Assembly (NCBI RefSeq): GCF_030866805.1
Contig: NZ_CP133019.1
Coordinates: forward strand, 2,356,001-2,420,000
From: Microbacterium terrisoli
GTDB lineage: Bacteria > Actinomycetota > Actinomycetes > Actinomycetales > Microbacteriaceae
Length of the DNA stretch: 64,000 nt
Reading direction: 5' to 3'
Positions 2,156 through 13,164 of the stretch are shown here, piece by piece. Within the stretch, counting starts at the first letter, position 1, and every line of letters starts with the position of its first letter. The position numbers and the translations under genes were made by a program. The notes below the pieces were generated by a model that worked only from the letters and a program-made list of their open reading frames with translations, did no database searches and had not been told where the DNA came from.

Positions 2156-2170
2156 TCTGCCGTGGGCCGA
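2156..2170 (+). promoter_or_regulatory. PopR-like operator box 1 of clpP operon
   Basis: TCTGCC-GTG-GGCCGA matches 11 of 12 positions of the palindrome TCTGCC-N3-GGCAGA that I recall as the Streptomyces PopR operator. It abuts box 2 with a 15-bp period. Confidence 0.55.
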
Positions 2171-2185
2171 TCTGCCTGCAGCGGA
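2171..2185 (+). promoter_or_regulatory. PopR-like operator box 2 of clpP operon
   Basis: TCTGCC-TGC-AGCGGA matches 10 of 12 positions of the same palindrome. It covers -55 to -41 relative to the clpP ATG, just upstream of where a -35 element would lie and therefore a plausible activator site. Confidence 0.55.
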
Positions 2186-2213
2186 TCCGAGTGCACGTCC
2201 GGCCGGGATCGCA

Positions 2214-2219
2214 CAGGCT
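2214..2219 (+). promoter_or_regulatory. putative -10 of accessory clpP operon
   Basis: CAGGCT ends 6 nt before the ATG at 2226. It is a weak match (C for T at the first position), fitting an activator-dependent, nearly leaderless promoter. The intervening GAGGG could also serve as a ribosome-binding site. Confidence 0.4.
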
Positions 2220-2225
2220 GAGGGC

Positions 2226-2846
2226 ATGAGCGAAGACACCCCGCGCCACCTGTTCGACACCGAGACCCGCCGTTCGCTGTACGCCCGACGCGTGCTGGTG
2301 CTGGACGGCCCGCTCGACGACGACAACGGCGTGCTGCTGATGACACAGCTGCTGGCTCTGGCCGCCGAAGACGACCGAGCCGACATCACCCTGTGGATAC
2401 ACTCTCCCGGCGGCTCGGTGCCGGCGATGCTGGCGATCCGCGACCTCATGCGCACGGTGCCCTGCGACGTGGCTACGGTGGCGTTCGGGCTGGCCTGCAG
2501 CGCCGGCCAGTTCCTGCTCTCGGCCGGCACGCCGGGAAAGCGCCGCGCGCTGCCGCACAGCCGCATCCTGCTGCACCAGGGCTCGTCCGGCATCGGCGGC
2601 ACGGCCGTGGACGTCGAGCTGCAGGCCGCCGACCTGCGTGAGACCCGTGACACGGTGCTCGGGCTCATCGCCCACGACACCGGGCAGCCGTTGGACCGCG
2701 TGTTCGAAGACTCGCTGCACGATCGCTGGTTCAGCGCCGACGAGGCTCTGGCCTACGGGTTCATCGATGAGATCACCACCTCGTTCCCCGACATCCTCCC
2801 CCACGTCGCCCGCCGCGCCGTGGGCCTTGCCACCGAGGCGGCCTGA
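2226..2846 (+). CDS. clpP: accessory ClpP protease subunit with intact triad
   Basis: 206-aa ClpP-family serine peptidase (S14). The catalytic triad is complete: Ser92 in GLACSAGQ, His117 in ILLHQ and Asp166 in LHDRWFS. It should form a heptameric ring working with a Clp ATPase, probably mixed with the product of the next gene, whose ATG begins one base after this stop. No tig, clpX or core clpP1P2 operon is nearby, so this looks like an accessory pair analogous to Streptomyces clpP3/clpP4. The C-terminus is TEAA. Two PopR-like boxes lie upstream. Confidence 0.9.
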   Translation: MSEDTPRHLFDTETRRSLYARRVLVLDGPLDDDNGVLLMTQLLALAAEDDRADITLWIHSPGGSVPAMLAIRDLMRTVPCDVATVAFGLACSAGQFLLSAGTPGKRRALPHSRILLHQGSSGIGGTAVDVELQAADLRETRDTVLGLIAHDTGQPLDRVFEDSLHDRWFSADEALAYGFIDEITTSFPDILPHVARRAVGLATEAA

Positions 2847-2847
2847 C

Positions 2848-3450
2848 ATGGCGCAGTTTCTGATCCCCAACGTGATCGCCGAATCCCCCCGCGGAGACCG
2901 CGTGATGGACGTCTATTCGCAGCTGCTGACCGAAAGGGTGATCTACCTGGGCACCCCGCTGGATGCCGATGTGGCCAACTCGCTCGTCGCGCAGCTGCTG
3001 CACCTGGACGCCCAGGGCGGCGACCGTGACATCCAGCTGTACATCAACTGCGCGGGCGGTGACCCGAGCGCGATGCTCGCGGTCTACGACACGATGCGCT
3101 TCGTGCGCAGCGACATCGCGACCTTCTGCATCGGTGAAGCCGTCGCCGTGGGCGCCGTGCTGCTGGCGGCCGGCACTCCGGGAAAGCGGGCGGCCCTCCC
3201 GCACGCGCGGGTGATCCTGCACCAGCCGGCCGCACAGGCCCGAGGCGCCGTGCCCGACCTGATCCTGCAGGCCGACGAGGTCGTGCGGGTGCGCGGAGAG
3301 ATCGAACGGATCCTCACCACCCACACGGGTCAGAGCATCCAGCGGCTGCGGGCCGACACCGACCACGATCTCGTGCTGACCGCCGACGGCGCCCGCGACT
3401 ACGGCATCGTCGACCAGGTGATCTCGCAGCGGGCTCCTTCGGCTGCGTGA
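2848..3450 (+). CDS. clpP: accessory ClpP-like subunit lacking the catalytic serine
   Basis: 200-aa ClpP-fold protein. The nucleophile position in the conserved GxAxSxGA segment reads GEAVAVGA, so Ser is Ala100. His125 (ILHQP) and Asp174 (TDHDLVLTA) remain. The oxyanion-side SPGG motif is altered to CAGG. It is therefore predicted to be proteolytically inactive but still able to assemble, like cyanobacterial or plastid ClpR. The single-base gap from the upstream clpP implies translational coupling and fixed stoichiometry. The C-terminus is PSAA. It converges on the regulator gene six bases downstream. Confidence 0.9.
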   Translation: MAQFLIPNVIAESPRGDRVMDVYSQLLTERVIYLGTPLDADVANSLVAQLLHLDAQGGDRDIQLYINCAGGDPSAMLAVYDTMRFVRSDIATFCIGEAVAVGAVLLAAGTPGKRAALPHARVILHQPAAQARGAVPDLILQADEVVRVRGEIERILTTHTGQSIQRLRADTDHDLVLTADGARDYGIVDQVISQRAPSAA

Positions 3451-3456
3451 TATGCC

Positions 3457-3819
3457 TCAGGCGGCCAGGGCGTACGCGGCCCGCAGGACCGCCCGTTGCG
3501 GCGAGGCAACCCGGTCGGGGGCCGTCGCCACGCGTTCGGCGACGCCGAGCGTCAGGTCGAGCAGGGTCAGGCCGAGCGCCCCGGCCACCGCCGCGAGCAT
3601 CTCGCTCGAGGGCTCCTTGCGTCCGCGTTCGATCTCGGACAGATACTGCGGCGAGATGCCGGCACGCCGCGACGTGTCGGCGAGTGTCTCGTCGCGCTCC
3701 GTGCGCCGCGCGCGCAGCACGTCGCCGACGAGTTCGCGCCACAGTGGTTCGGGCGCCGGCGGCGTGCCGTGGTCGGTCTGACACGAACGGAGATCCGGTG
3801 GTGCGGCGGCTTCGGTCAT
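3457..3819 (-). CDS. XRE-family regulator, ClgR/PopR-like
   Basis: 120-aa DNA-binding protein with a Cro/C1-type helix-turn-helix; the segment YLSEIERGRKEPSSEML is characteristic of ClgR and PopR. These proteins activate clp genes in actinobacteria and are themselves Clp substrates. The C-terminus is YALAA, matching the Ala-Ala degron of Streptomyces ClgR and PopR. ATG at 3819 is preferred over GTG at 3825 because TAGCAT ends 6 nt before it. A box resembling the clpP boxes lies 42-56 nt upstream. The window holds a second, canonical clgR at 12700. I infer this one controls the adjacent accessory clpP operon and itself. Confidence 0.85.
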   Translation of the reverse strand: MTEAAAPPDLRSCQTDHGTPPAPEPLWRELVGDVLRARRTERDETLADTSRRAGISPQYLSEIERGRKEPSSEMLAAVAGALGLTLLDLTLGVAERVATAPDRVASPQRAVLRAAYALAA

Positions 3820-3825
3820 GGCCAC

Positions 3826-3831
3826 ATGCTA
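3826..3831 (-). promoter_or_regulatory. -10 element of PopR-like regulator gene (leaderless)
   Basis: TAGCAT on the minus strand ends 6 nt before the ATG at 3819. Confidence 0.5.
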
Positions 3832-3860
3832 GGCGCGCACGGCCGCGCACCGCACGATTC

Positions 3861-3875
3861 TCTGCTGAGAGCGGA
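3861..3875 (-). promoter_or_regulatory. PopR-like box upstream of its own regulator gene
   Basis: Read on the plus strand this is TCTGCT-GAG-AGCGGA, sharing the AGCGGA half with clpP box 2. Minus-strand match to TCTGCC-N3-GGCAGA is 9 of 12. It sits 42-56 nt before the regulator ATG, almost exactly the spacing of box 2 before clpP, which suggests autoregulation. Confidence 0.45.
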
Positions 3876-4857: not shown

Positions 4858-7218
4858 ATGGCCCGAATCGGCGTCGCCGCGTGTTTGGATGAAGTCGTGA
4901 AAGGGTGGTTCGATCGTGCGATCGGCGCTCCCGGAACCGTCTCATTCGACCGGTTCCAGGCCGCGGTGGACGACGCGCGCACCCTCGAGCCCTGGGCGCG
5001 GGCGCTTTCCGACGCCGAGCTGCGGCCCGCCGCCCGCGCTGCGGTTCTGCACGGCGATCAGGCCAGCGGGCGCACAGCGGGCGCGGGACTTCTGGCCGTA
5101 CTGCGCACCGCCGCCGAACGCACGCTCGGACAGCGTCCGTTCGACCAGCAGATGCTCGCCTGCTGCGCCCTGATCAGCGGACATGCCATCGAGCTGGACA
5201 CCGGCGAAGGCAAGACGCTGGTGGGCGCCATGGCCGCGGCGGCCTACGCCCTGGCCGGCCGCCGCGTGCATGTGCTGACGGTCAACGACTACCTCGCCCG
5301 GCGCGACGCGGAATGGATGCGGCCGCTGTATGCCGCCCTCGGCATGAGTTCGGGATGCGTCGGTCAGGACACTCCGCACGGTGAGCGTCGGCAGCTGTAC
5401 CGCGCCGACATCGTGCACGCTCCGGTCAGCGAGATCGGCTACGACGTGCTGCGCGATCGTTTCGTCACGACCGCCGGTGCGCGCGTCGCCCCTGCGCAGG
5501 ACGTGGCCATCGTCGACGAGGCCGACGCCGTCATGATCGATGAGGCGATGTCGCCGCTCGTCCTGGCGGGCACGGCGCCGGCGGCCACCGGGAACGTGGC
5601 CCTGGCCGACCAGCTGGTGCAGACGCTGCGCGCCGGCGAGCACTACACGGTCGACGACGATCACGCCACCGTGTCGCTGACCGATGCCGGCATCGACGCG
5701 CTGGAGTGGCGCCTGGGCGGGGTGAACCTCTATGACGCGGCGCAGGCAGAGACTCTCACCCGCATCAATCTCGCCCTGCACGCACACGTGCTGATCGTGC
5801 GCGACGTGGACTATCTGGTGCAGGACGGCGAGGTCATCCTGATCAGCGCCGCGCGGGGGCGTGTGGCCGAACACCAGCGGTGGCCCGACGGTCTGCATGC
5901 CGCGATCGAGCAGAAGGAACATCTGGCGCTGTCCTCGCCGGGCATGGTGCTCGACAACCTCACGGTGCAGGACCTGCTGCGCGGCTACGCCACGGTGGTG
6001 GGGATGAGCGGAACCGTGCTGCCGGTCGCCGAGGAGCTCTCGGAGTTCTACGGACTGTCCTCCGGTCGCGTCCCCCGACGACTGCCGAACCGGCGCGTCG
6101 ATCTGCCGCAGCGCGTGTTCCTCGACGACGAGAGCCGTACGCAGGCTCTGGTCGCTGAGGTACAGGAGCGCCATCGCACCGGTCAGCCGATCCTGGTCGG
6201 CACGCAGAGCGTCGCCGAGTCGGAGCGGGTGGCCGCACGTCTGACCGGCATCGGGCTGGAGGTGGACGTGCTCAACGCCCGCAATGACGCGGCCGAGGCA
6301 TCTGTCATCTCCGCGGCGGGTGAGTTCGGATCGATCACGATCTCCACGCAGATGTCTGGACGCGGCACCGACATCCGCCTCGGCGGCGCCGATGAGCGCG
6401 ACCACGACCGGGTGGCCCGAGCCGGAGGTCTGGCCGTGCTGCAAGTCGGCCGCTACCCCTCGCAGCGCCTGGATGCTCAGCTGCGGGGCCGCTCGGGTCG
6501 GCAGGGAGATCCGGGGGTCGCCGTGACGTTCACGAGCCTCGACGACGAACTCGTGCTCACGCACGCGCCGGCGTACCTGATGACCAAGGCGACGCGCCAG
6601 GACGGCGCGGCCGACACTCACGCGCTGGGCGCCGTCGTCGACGCGGCGCAGCGGATCGCCGAAGGTGCGCGACGCGACCGCCACCGCGACACCTGGGACT
6701 TCTCCCGCGCCATCGCCCGGCAGCGGCACACGGTGCTGGCCGAGCGTGACGAGGTGATGCGCGGCGAGCACGTGCGCGAGCAGCTGGGCAGCCGCATCCC
6801 GACCCAGCTGAAAGCCTTGACCGCCGCGACCTCCGTGCAGACCGTCGACGACGCGGCCCGCGAGGTCATCCTGTGGTGCCTGGACGATGCGTGGAGCGAC
6901 CACCTGGCCCAGCTGGGTGAGATCCGTGACGGCATCCATCTGCAGGCGCTGGCAGGCCTCAGCCCGCGCGACGAGTTCCACCGCATCACCCTGCGCCGAT
7001 TCGAGGGCTTCTTCGACACGGTCTACGACCGGGCCGCCGGCATCCTGCGCACGATCACCGCCGCACAGCTCACCGCCGGAGGTGCCGCGCTGGGGATGCG
7101 CCGACCATCGGCGACGTGGACATACATGGTGCGCGAGAACCCGTTCGGCGGGTCACTGGAGCGCGGTGCGCGCACGGCAGGTCGGTGGTTTCGCTCACGC
7201 GTCCTCGGCATCGAATGA
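4858..7218 (+). CDS. secA2: accessory preprotein translocase ATPase SecA2
   Basis: 786 aa, close to mycobacterial SecA2 (about 780) and much shorter than housekeeping SecA1. Visible: Walker A DTGEGKT near residues 114-120, Walker B VDEAD near 217-221, the SGRGTDIRLGG motif near 500 and LRGRSGRQGDPG after it. The C-terminal zinc-binding tail of SecA1 is absent. SecA2 drives export of a limited protein set with the SecYEG channel. ATG at 4858 or GTG at 4897 could be the start. The 3' end overlaps the convergent RibD-like gene by 24 bp. No secY2, asp or glycosylated adhesin genes are nearby, so this is the actinobacterial SecA2-only type. Confidence 0.9.
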   Translation: MARIGVAACLDEVVKGWFDRAIGAPGTVSFDRFQAAVDDARTLEPWARALSDAELRPAARAAVLHGDQASGRTAGAGLLAVLRTAAERTLGQRPFDQQMLACCALISGHAIELDTGEGKTLVGAMAAAAYALAGRRVHVLTVNDYLARRDAEWMRPLYAALGMSSGCVGQDTPHGERRQLYRADIVHAPVSEIGYDVLRDRFVTTAGARVAPAQDVAIVDEADAVMIDEAMSPLVLAGTAPAATGNVALADQLVQTLRAGEHYTVDDDHATVSLTDAGIDALEWRLGGVNLYDAAQAETLTRINLALHAHVLIVRDVDYLVQDGEVILISAARGRVAEHQRWPDGLHAAIEQKEHLALSSPGMVLDNLTVQDLLRGYATVVGMSGTVLPVAEELSEFYGLSSGRVPRRLPNRRVDLPQRVFLDDESRTQALVAEVQERHRTGQPILVGTQSVAESERVAARLTGIGLEVDVLNARNDAAEASVISAAGEFGSITISTQMSGRGTDIRLGGADERDHDRVARAGGLAVLQVGRYPSQRLDAQLRGRSGRQGDPGVAVTFTSLDDELVLTHAPAYLMTKATRQDGAADTHALGAVVDAAQRIAEGARRDRHRDTWDFSRAIARQRHTVLAERDEVMRGEHVREQLGSRIPTQLKALTAATSVQTVDDAAREVILWCLDDAWSDHLAQLGEIRDGIHLQALAGLSPRDEFHRITLRRFEGFFDTVYDRAAGILRTITAAQLTAGGAALGMRRPSATWTYMVRENPFGGSLERGARTAGRWFRSRVLGIE

Positions 7219-7755
7219 GTCGAGCGTGCCGGGGGCGCCCACGACGCCGTACCGGCCGCACAGGAAGTCACGGTTGCGAGCCACCTCGAGCAGCTCCAGT
7301 TCCAGCGCAAGCGGCATGAACGGGAAGCCTGCGCCGAGGGTCACCGGCGCGAACTGCACCCAGACCTCATCGAGCAGGCCCGCCACCGCGAACTGTCCGG
7401 CGACGTCTCCCCCGCCGACCACCCACAGATCACGGCCACCAGCCGCCTTGGTCATCTGCTTGTGCACGCGGCGCACATCTCCGTACGCGAATCGCACGTC
7501 GGCGCCTGCCCGCTGGGGCAGCGTCCGGTGCGTGAGAACCCACGTCGGCTGCGTGTACGCCCACCCCTTGTCATGGGCGAGGACCCACTCGTACGTCGCC
7601 GCGCCCATCACGAGCGCGCCGACCGACCGCGCGAAAGCGTTGTAGCCCATCGGCCCGTCAGGATCGACATCCCGCCGCAGCAGCCAATCGAGCCGGTGCT
7701 GCGCAGTGGCGATGAATCCGTCAAGACTCGAGGCCGTGTAGAAGACGGTGGTCAT
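7195..7755 (-). CDS. dihydrofolate reductase-family protein (RibD C-terminal-like)
   Basis: 186 aa. The RibD_C/DHFR-like fold is recognised from the N-terminal SSLDGFIA segment, GALVMGAATYEW, and the nucleotide-binding WVVGGGDVAGQF. Such stand-alone proteins reduce pterin-like or other substrates with NADPH; the true substrate is unknown. It is not the biosynthetic folA, which lies at 20510. The start MTTVFYTAS at 7755 matches the family N-terminus. Its 3' end overlaps secA2 tail to tail. Confidence 0.8.
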   Translation of the reverse strand: MTTVFYTASSLDGFIATAQHRLDWLLRRDVDPDGPMGYNAFARSVGALVMGAATYEWVLAHDKGWAYTQPTWVLTHRTLPQRAGADVRFAYGDVRRVHKQMTKAAGGRDLWVVGGGDVAGQFAVAGLLDEVWVQFAPVTLGAGFPFMPLALELELLEVARNRDFLCGRYGVVGAPGTLDSFDAEDA

Positions 7756-12699: not shown

Positions 12700-13008
12700 T
12701 CAGCGCAGCGACAGTTCGGGACCGACCTCTGCCACAAGGTCGTCGGGCACCACGTCCGGGAAGGACTGGACGCCCTCGAGCACCGAGATGCGGTCGCTGA
12801 CTTCGCGCATGATCGTCGAGATGGGAACATCGAGCGCGTCGGCGACCGATGCGAGGATCTCGCTCGATGCCTCCTTCTGGCCGCGCTCGACCTCACTGAG
12901 GTAGCCGAGGGCGACGCTCGCGCGGCCCGCCACCTGCCGGAGGGTATCGCCCTTCTGCTGACGGAAGTCGCGAAGCACGTCGCCGATCTCTTGACGTACC
13001 AGGATCAT
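12700..13008 (-). CDS. clgR: Clp gene regulator ClgR (XRE family)
   Basis: 102 aa. The helix-turn-helix with YLSEVERGQKEASSEIL identifies ClgR, the activator of clpP1P2, clpC and other genes in Corynebacterium, Mycobacterium and Streptomyces. Location after pgsA-cinA and before DUF3046-recA matches the M. tuberculosis clgR (Rv2745c) setting. ATG at 13008 follows GAGGAGG. The C-terminus reads ELSLR and lacks the Ala-Ala degron described for Streptomyces ClgR, whereas the paralogue at 3457 has it. Confidence 0.9.
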   Translation of the reverse strand: MILVRQEIGDVLRDFRQQKGDTLRQVAGRASVALGYLSEVERGQKEASSEILASVADALDVPISTIMREVSDRISVLEGVQSFPDVVPDDLVAEVGPELSLR

Positions 13009-13164
13009 TTCGGGCCCCTCCTCACCGTTATTTCCCTCGTTGCCGGGTGCACAAGAGTACAACACCCGTGTGGGTCACACTAATCCCACGCGCTTGGTAA
13101 TACTTGGGAATCGCCGAATGCAACCGTTCTGTGACGGGGGTTGTTCCCGATCGGCCGAACCATG

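Follow-up and report, generated by a model that had tools for sequence, protein, structure and literature searches.

The stretch of DNA considered here, called the window, comprises 64,000 nucleotides of the genome of Microbacterium terrisoli. Close to its beginning, two clpP genes form an operon (2226-3450) with two abutting boxes upstream, and the gene of an XRE regulator faces this operon from the opposite strand, with a single box in its own promoter. The features of the locus are the following:

2156..2170, + strand: distal PopR-like box of the clpP promoter, TCTGCCGTGGGCCGA, which reads TCTGCC-GTG-GGCCGA; in relatives a box starts at -70 or -71
2171..2185, + strand: proximal PopR-like box of the clpP promoter, TCTGCCTGCAGCGGA, which reads TCTGCC-TGC-AGCGGA and abuts the distal box with a 15-bp period
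2214..2219, + strand: -10-like hexamer CAGGCT, 12 nt before the clpP ATG, with a putative function in a transcript predicted to be leaderless or nearly so
2226..2846, + strand: first accessory ClpP subunit, 206 aa, with Ser, His and Asp of the triad present (PF00574, 4e-53; alignment)
2848..3450, + strand: second accessory ClpP subunit, 200 aa, with the catalytic Ser replaced by Ala100 and the His and Asp kept (PF00574, 2.6e-62; alignments)
3457..3819, - strand: PopR-type XRE regulator, 120 aa, convergent (tail to tail) with the clpP operon (HTH_3, 2e-12; ClgR model, 73 bits; protein tree)
3460..3468, - strand: codons of a C-terminal Leu-Ala-Ala, a proposed ClpP1P2 degron (AA ends in relatives; degron role after the excerpt of PMC9775585)
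3826..3831, - strand: -10-like TAGCAT of the regulator promoter, 12 nt before the ATG (sequence; TAnnnT in relatives)
3861..3875, - strand: single PopR-like box of the regulator promoter, TCTGCTGAGAGCGGA, which on the + strand reads TCTGCT-GAG-AGCGGA (sequence; position in relatives)
12778..13017, - strand: HTH region of a separate ClgR-like paralogue, outside the circuit (homology; row C_L073 in the ClgR clade of the tree)

The circuit of PopR and the clpP3 clpP4 genes in Streptomyces reportedly goes back to the founding work of Viala and colleagues in 2000 and 2002. Later articles, used here in excerpt, present Streptomyces PopR as paralogous to ClgR and subject to degradation by ClpP1P2 (PMC9765437) and as an activator (PMC9765437, PMC9775585), and in S. 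lividans the C-terminal alanines of PopR are the likely site of recognition by ClpP (PMC9775585). In the excerpt of PMC9775585, a review, the PopR site of S. lividans reads TCTGCC-3N-GGCGAATCTGCC-3N-GGCAGA, a tandem of two abutting 15-mers, and the ClgR site reads GTTCGC-5N-GCG. An earlier note on this DNA had named TCTGCC-N3-GGCAGA as the PopR site, in agreement with this tandem. Among the articles on PopR, ClgR, ClpP4, and ClpR (including PMC9765437, PMC12607617, PMC9775585, PMC3258218, PMC10149685, and PMC7966870), the excerpts contained no account of PopR outside Streptomyces and none of triad loss in ClpP4, although the PopR paper of 2000 may already describe either.

The three boxes of the window have exactly the sequences and positions that the earlier note had claimed (2156-2170, 2171-2185, and 3861-3875). 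The matched spacing also holds, with the near clpP box at -55 to -41 relative to the ATG at 2226 and the regulator box at -56 to -42 relative to the ATG at 3819. Compared with TCTGCC-N3-GGCAGA, the two clpP boxes match 11 and 10 of the 12 positions, and the right halves of the three boxes are GGCCGA, AGCGGA and, on the strand of the regulator, AGCAGA. Within the 64 kb the box pattern occurs three times against an expectation of 0.27, and none of 100 shuffled sequences reached at least three matches. In a scan of the whole window genome, which had been proposed as a check, the pattern is not enriched (16 matches, against 22 for the reversed control); the remaining 13 matches fall inside long open frames (12 by script and the 13th by the printed frames), so that only the three boxes of the window appear intergenic. 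For these reasons the genome-wide count proves little by itself and was dropped as evidence; the main support for the boxes is comparative.

For the comparison, relatives of the regulator were collected from 58 related genomes, from named genome contigs (the best 80 of 586 confirmed matches), and from 296 genomes of the class, the 40 stretches from this last search being a selection by hand and not the complete list of matches. A total of 143 loci were analysed, 129 of which hold all three genes and fall into 121 distinct groups; the set was selected by similarity to the regulator and does not sample genomes at random. Its named members belong to Microbacterium, Nocardioides, Nonomuraea, Streptosporangium, Actinomadura, Nocardia, Promicromonospora, Glycomyces, and Lentzea. 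The clpP sequences of L044, L049, and L052, which are of the same genus as the window, are shared with named Microbacterium contigs. The loci called Streptomyces-like come from a group of large genomes (g44), and the label is inferred from their likeness to a named Streptomyces record. Seven loci with a relative of the regulator and no accessory clpP pair (L064 and L066-L071) were taken as ClgR-type and omitted before the 143 were counted. One or more genes are absent from the stretch in 14 of the 143 loci, namely L199-L202, which are ClgR loci included deliberately, and L196, L198, L057, L086, L089, L116, L129, L133, L140, and L205. The genome of L057 has a clpP pair elsewhere on the same contig; L196 (genome G094) and L198 (G225) are PopR-like genes of Streptomyces-like genomes with no clpP pair within the stretch compared. 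A disrupted locus (L060) and one with a fragmentary first subunit (L085) were retained among the 121.

The earlier note had named a lack of box conservation in relatives with the same gene order as evidence that would speak against its reading. Across the 121 loci, boxes, spacing, and gene order are conserved, the order being convergent in 129 of the 129 loci that hold both clpP genes and the regulator. The boxes were scored as the best match to the 12 positions of TCTGCC-N3-GGCAGA within 150 nt upstream, two loci being short of upstream sequence for clpP and one for the regulator. Of 119 promoters of the first clpP gene, 106 reach at least 10 matched positions and 115 reach at least 9, whereas 49 and 81 of 120 regulator promoters, respectively, do so; in control windows of the same loci, at least 10 positions match in 63 of 7281 (0.9%) and at least 9 in 9.5%. 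A second, abutting box is found in 106 of the 115 clpP promoters with a best match of at least 9, versus a single one of the 81 regulator promoters with a box. The box ends 40-42 nt before the start codon, its standard position, in 93 of these 115 clpP promoters and for 62 of the 81 regulator boxes. The same picture is obtained when columns are simply anchored on the start codon with no selection for boxes: information averages 0.34 bits at -71 to -41 of clpP (n=121) and 0.44 bits at -56 to -41 of the regulator (n=120), versus 0.03 and 0.02 bits, respectively, in the background columns -110 to -75 and about 0.1 bits at -38 to -16. This unselected profile is lower, yet clear, compared with that of promoters preselected for a box at the standard position, which is partly circular.

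Downstream of the boxes the promoters share a further element. When the 121 clpP promoters are aligned by their start codons, the strongest signal is in columns -11 and -7, and a permissive hexamer (NNNGCT or [CGT]ANNNT) lies 28-30 nt past the near box in 93 of 93 clpP promoters, which is a raw count. Of the 62 regulator promoters whose box is at -57 to -55, 60 have TAnnnT at -11 to -13, a position that suggests transcripts that are leaderless or nearly so. Outside the Streptomyces-like loci, 28-30 nt separate the box from this -10 element in 60 of 62 standard regulator promoters.

The regulator box itself is weaker or absent in some lineages. When a relaxed palindrome of 10 scored positions was sought near the fixed position, with lineages assigned by hand, 42 of 43 Microbacterium regulator promoters matched in full; at least 9 positions matched in 15 of 18 Streptosporangiaceae-type promoters and 29 of 46 others (control: at least 9 in 4.0%, all 10 in 0.6%). 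None of the 14 Streptomyces-like promoters did so, many of their start codons being misjudged. The box takes an altered form, T[TC]C[ACG]C[CT]-N3-RGC, in 12 of these 14 loci as well as the named Streptomyces record, and there it lies 33-34 nt before the -10 element, whereas the regulator box of the window type is regular, single, and 28-30 nt from it. The clp boxes are also usually closer to the start codon here than in the Streptomyces-like loci. In other respects the named and Streptomyces-like loci resemble the window, with a convergent clpP pair, an abutting tandem operator of the form TCTGCC-N3-GGC, and a C-terminal LAA. The genes follow the order of the window on a large plasmid of Streptomyces fungicidicus, whose tandem site agrees exactly with the form given in the excerpt of PMC9775585. 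The same order is found on a large plasmid of Prescottella equi (the two plasmid loci being L265 and L266), in which the clp box is weaker (9/12) and no regulator box was found.

Since the regulator gene has a single box in its own promoter, as seen in 42 of 43 Microbacterium loci, the circuit is probably self-activating. XRE regulators are often repressors, and the regulator might instead repress both promoters; a regulator gene under its own control fits autorepression as well as autoactivation. This reading appears very improbable to us, because boxes at the standard position end 28-30 nt before the -10-like hexamer, and hence lie upstream of the core promoter and not over it, and because Streptomyces PopR is described as an activator in the excerpts of both articles cited above.

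With respect to the identity of the regulator, its sequence places it outside the ClgR clade as a ClgR-paralogous XRE regulator, a kind that the Streptomyces PopR circuit also has. It scores 73 bits against the NCBIfam ClgR model, under the cut-off of 170, and in the protein tree it lies outside the clade formed by the 12 ClgR rows (support 100/99). The tree has no supported clade that unites it with Streptomyces PopR, and the root among the PopR-like rows is open; one of these rows, C_L198, groups with the Streptomyces-type PopR. The regulator of the window ends in YALAA, and AA ends are found in 116 of the 121 distinct regulators and in 136 of the 143 loci overall, four of which are ClgR; L075 is tallied as lacking AA, though another frame at this locus ends in LAA. 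The kinship with actinobacterial ClgR is nonetheless evident: identity over the HTH is 43-50% with the ClgR-type loci, eight of the 12 ClgR rows of the tree end in AA, and clp promoters are the targets of ClgR and the predicted targets here. The differences are the separate clade, the absence of an adjoining accessory clpP pair from the ClgR genes in the stretches compared, and another type of site, which is GTTCGC-5N-GCG in the excerpt of PMC9775585 and probably appears as a GGCGAACA half-site before clpP1 in the genus.

The similarity of the box cores (GCY-N3-RGC), together with the presence of a ClgR-like gene in the same window, raises the question of whether the boxes are in fact sites of ClgR, which would control housekeeping and accessory clp genes alike and leave the adjacent regulator with another role. 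Four ClpP genes are present in the window genome, the accessory pair and a distinct pair near 1.988 Mb that is taken as clpP1P2. The GGCGAACA right half occurs in 29 of 29 clpP1 promoters of the genus (L010 and L223-L251), where it probably marks the ClgR site, and it is absent from the three boxes of the window. Seven of these 29 promoters, including that of the window genome (TCTGCC-CAG-GGCGAA, 10 of the 12 PopR positions), contain TCTGCC-N3-GGCGAA, a form that the S. lividans PopR site has in its distal half (PMC9775585, in excerpt). This leaves room for cross-recognition between PopR and ClgR, and discrimination of boxes between the two regulators, judged by their sequences, is not clean. 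Against control by ClgR, the tandem site is assigned to PopR in Streptomyces (PMC9775585, in excerpt), and in 35 genomes of the genus the regulator (E < 1e-20) and the accessory clpP pair are either both present (18) or both absent (17), with a hypergeometric probability of 2e-10 computed with no correction for relatedness. The 18 include G025, in which the clpP genes are in pieces, and the 17 include G023, an incomplete genome in which no ClpP was seen. On balance, we regard ClgR as an improbable owner of these boxes and favor the adjacent PopR-type regulator.

The two accessory subunits differ in their catalytic residues. In an alignment of 121 pairs, the Ser-His-Asp triad is present in 120 of the first subunits, with the fragmentary L085 as the only exception, and in 14 of the second ones, being incomplete in the other 107. 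The second subunit of the window, a family member by sequence (PF00574), has Ala-His-Asp and thus lacks the triad, a point on which the earlier note is silent. The serine position is occupied by Ala in 50 second subunits, by Gly in 42, and by Ser in 29; among the 29 with Ser, the His is missing from 15. The loss also takes distinct forms: the Ser is lost here, while the His is lost in the Streptomyces-like second subunits and in the named Streptomyces one, which have Gly at that position. In a tree of 60 rows the Ser-less state needs at least three changes. The nearest relatives of the second subunit of the window, L076 and L139, have Ser, which indicates that the loss of catalysis is not fixed.

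Such a variety of losses could also be the sign of an accessory operon in decay, whose second gene is on its way out instead of encoding a maintained inactive subunit. L060 (in G025) is visibly disrupted, with clpP fragments and a repeated piece of the second subunit around an unrelated frame of 322 aa, and the first subunit of L085 is fragmentary. Nonetheless, the catalytic His is kept in 104 of the 121 second subunits, the Asp in 117, and Tyr at E. coli position 62 in 119, and Ser is found in L053, L076, and L139 inside a Ser-less part of the tree, where it was either regained or retained. Decay is, in our opinion, an unlikely explanation, and a maintained second subunit is preferred. Its position 82 is Phe, Tyr, or His in 121 of 121, whereas the first subunit has Trp at position 62 in 94 of 121 and Leu at position 82 in 95 of 121. 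Positions 62 and 82 are presumably part of the ATPase-docking pocket of E. coli ClpP, and the pattern of residues suggests that the first subunit cuts and the second docks the ATPases. Given the triad counts, the backup protease looks like an active/inactive pair of the ClpP/ClpR kind. According to the excerpt of PMC7966870, the ClpP/ClpR cores of cyanobacteria, plastids, and apicoplasts likewise combine catalytic and triad-less paralogues encoded together; unlike them, the pair described here has usually lost only one triad residue and is linked to a PopR-type gene. The likeness is one of genes and does not imply shared ancestry with those cores. Labour is also divided in the two-subunit ClpP1P2 core of Streptomyces, where ClpP1 cuts and ClpP2 binds the ATPases, although both subunits have intact triads there (PMC9765437, in excerpt).

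Taken together, the locus very probably encodes a PopR-type regulatory circuit, in which the regulator activates a backup clpP pair and itself when ClpP1P2 fails. The claim of the earlier note that this circuit extends outside Streptomyces gains support from the conservation of boxes, spacing, and tail-to-tail gene order in relatives, as well as from the co-occurrence of the genes, the tandem site described for S. lividans PopR, and the AA ends. According to this proposal, the product of 3819-3457 would be a ClgR-paralogous activator that housekeeping ClpP1P2 normally removes by means of its C-terminal LAA. Once ClpP1P2 is blocked or has too much to degrade, this activator would accumulate and then bind to the tandem box before the accessory clpP pair and to the single box before its own gene. 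Both sites would lie just upstream of the -35 region, with transcripts predicted to start at or near the start codon. In this way the regulator would turn on the backup ClpP core and amplify its own expression until ClpP activity returns. The two subunits would most likely form a mixed backup core, with the cutting done by the first, while the second, apparently catalytically dead here, has a structural role and perhaps docks the ATPase.

The new parts of this proposal are the putative self-activation and the predicted core with an inactive subunit. In a more general version, for which we see about even chances, the PopR-controlled backup ClpP is a ClpP/ClpR-type machine across the actinomycetes, and the active site of its second subunit has been lost in more than one way, through replacement of Ser by Ala or Gly in many families and of His by Gly in Streptomyces. 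In this version, the activator of most non-Streptomyces lineages would also turn on its own gene, so that a failure of housekeeping ClpP is answered in an all-or-none manner. A circuit described in one Streptomyces species would thereby become a testable and widespread module of actinomycetes, in whose operator grammar the target has two boxes, the regulator has one, and a certain spacing is preferred. A further prediction is that the backup core normally contains a subunit with a deficient triad. This may bear on what is observed for ClpP3P4, namely its insensitivity to ADEP antibiotics and its lack of equivalence with ClpP1P2 (PMC12607617, in excerpt). In genera in which PopR has not been studied, the circuit could possibly be used to report a loss of ClpP function.

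Some minor observations concern the surroundings of the locus. A Clp ATPase was considered for the longer gaps between the clpP pair and the regulator, and was rejected on the example of L135, where the gap gene (6335-7579), on the strand of the regulator, encodes a LigD primase-polymerase domain (PF21686). By visual comparison, similar frames are found in seven other Microbacterium gaps of more than 1 kb (L044, L052, L055, L056, L138, L141, and L144), and the genes of the other long gaps are unrelated or of unclear kind. In the window itself, an accessory SecA2 gene of the mycobacterial type (TIGR04221, 857 bits) is found at 4858-7218, adjoining dapF.
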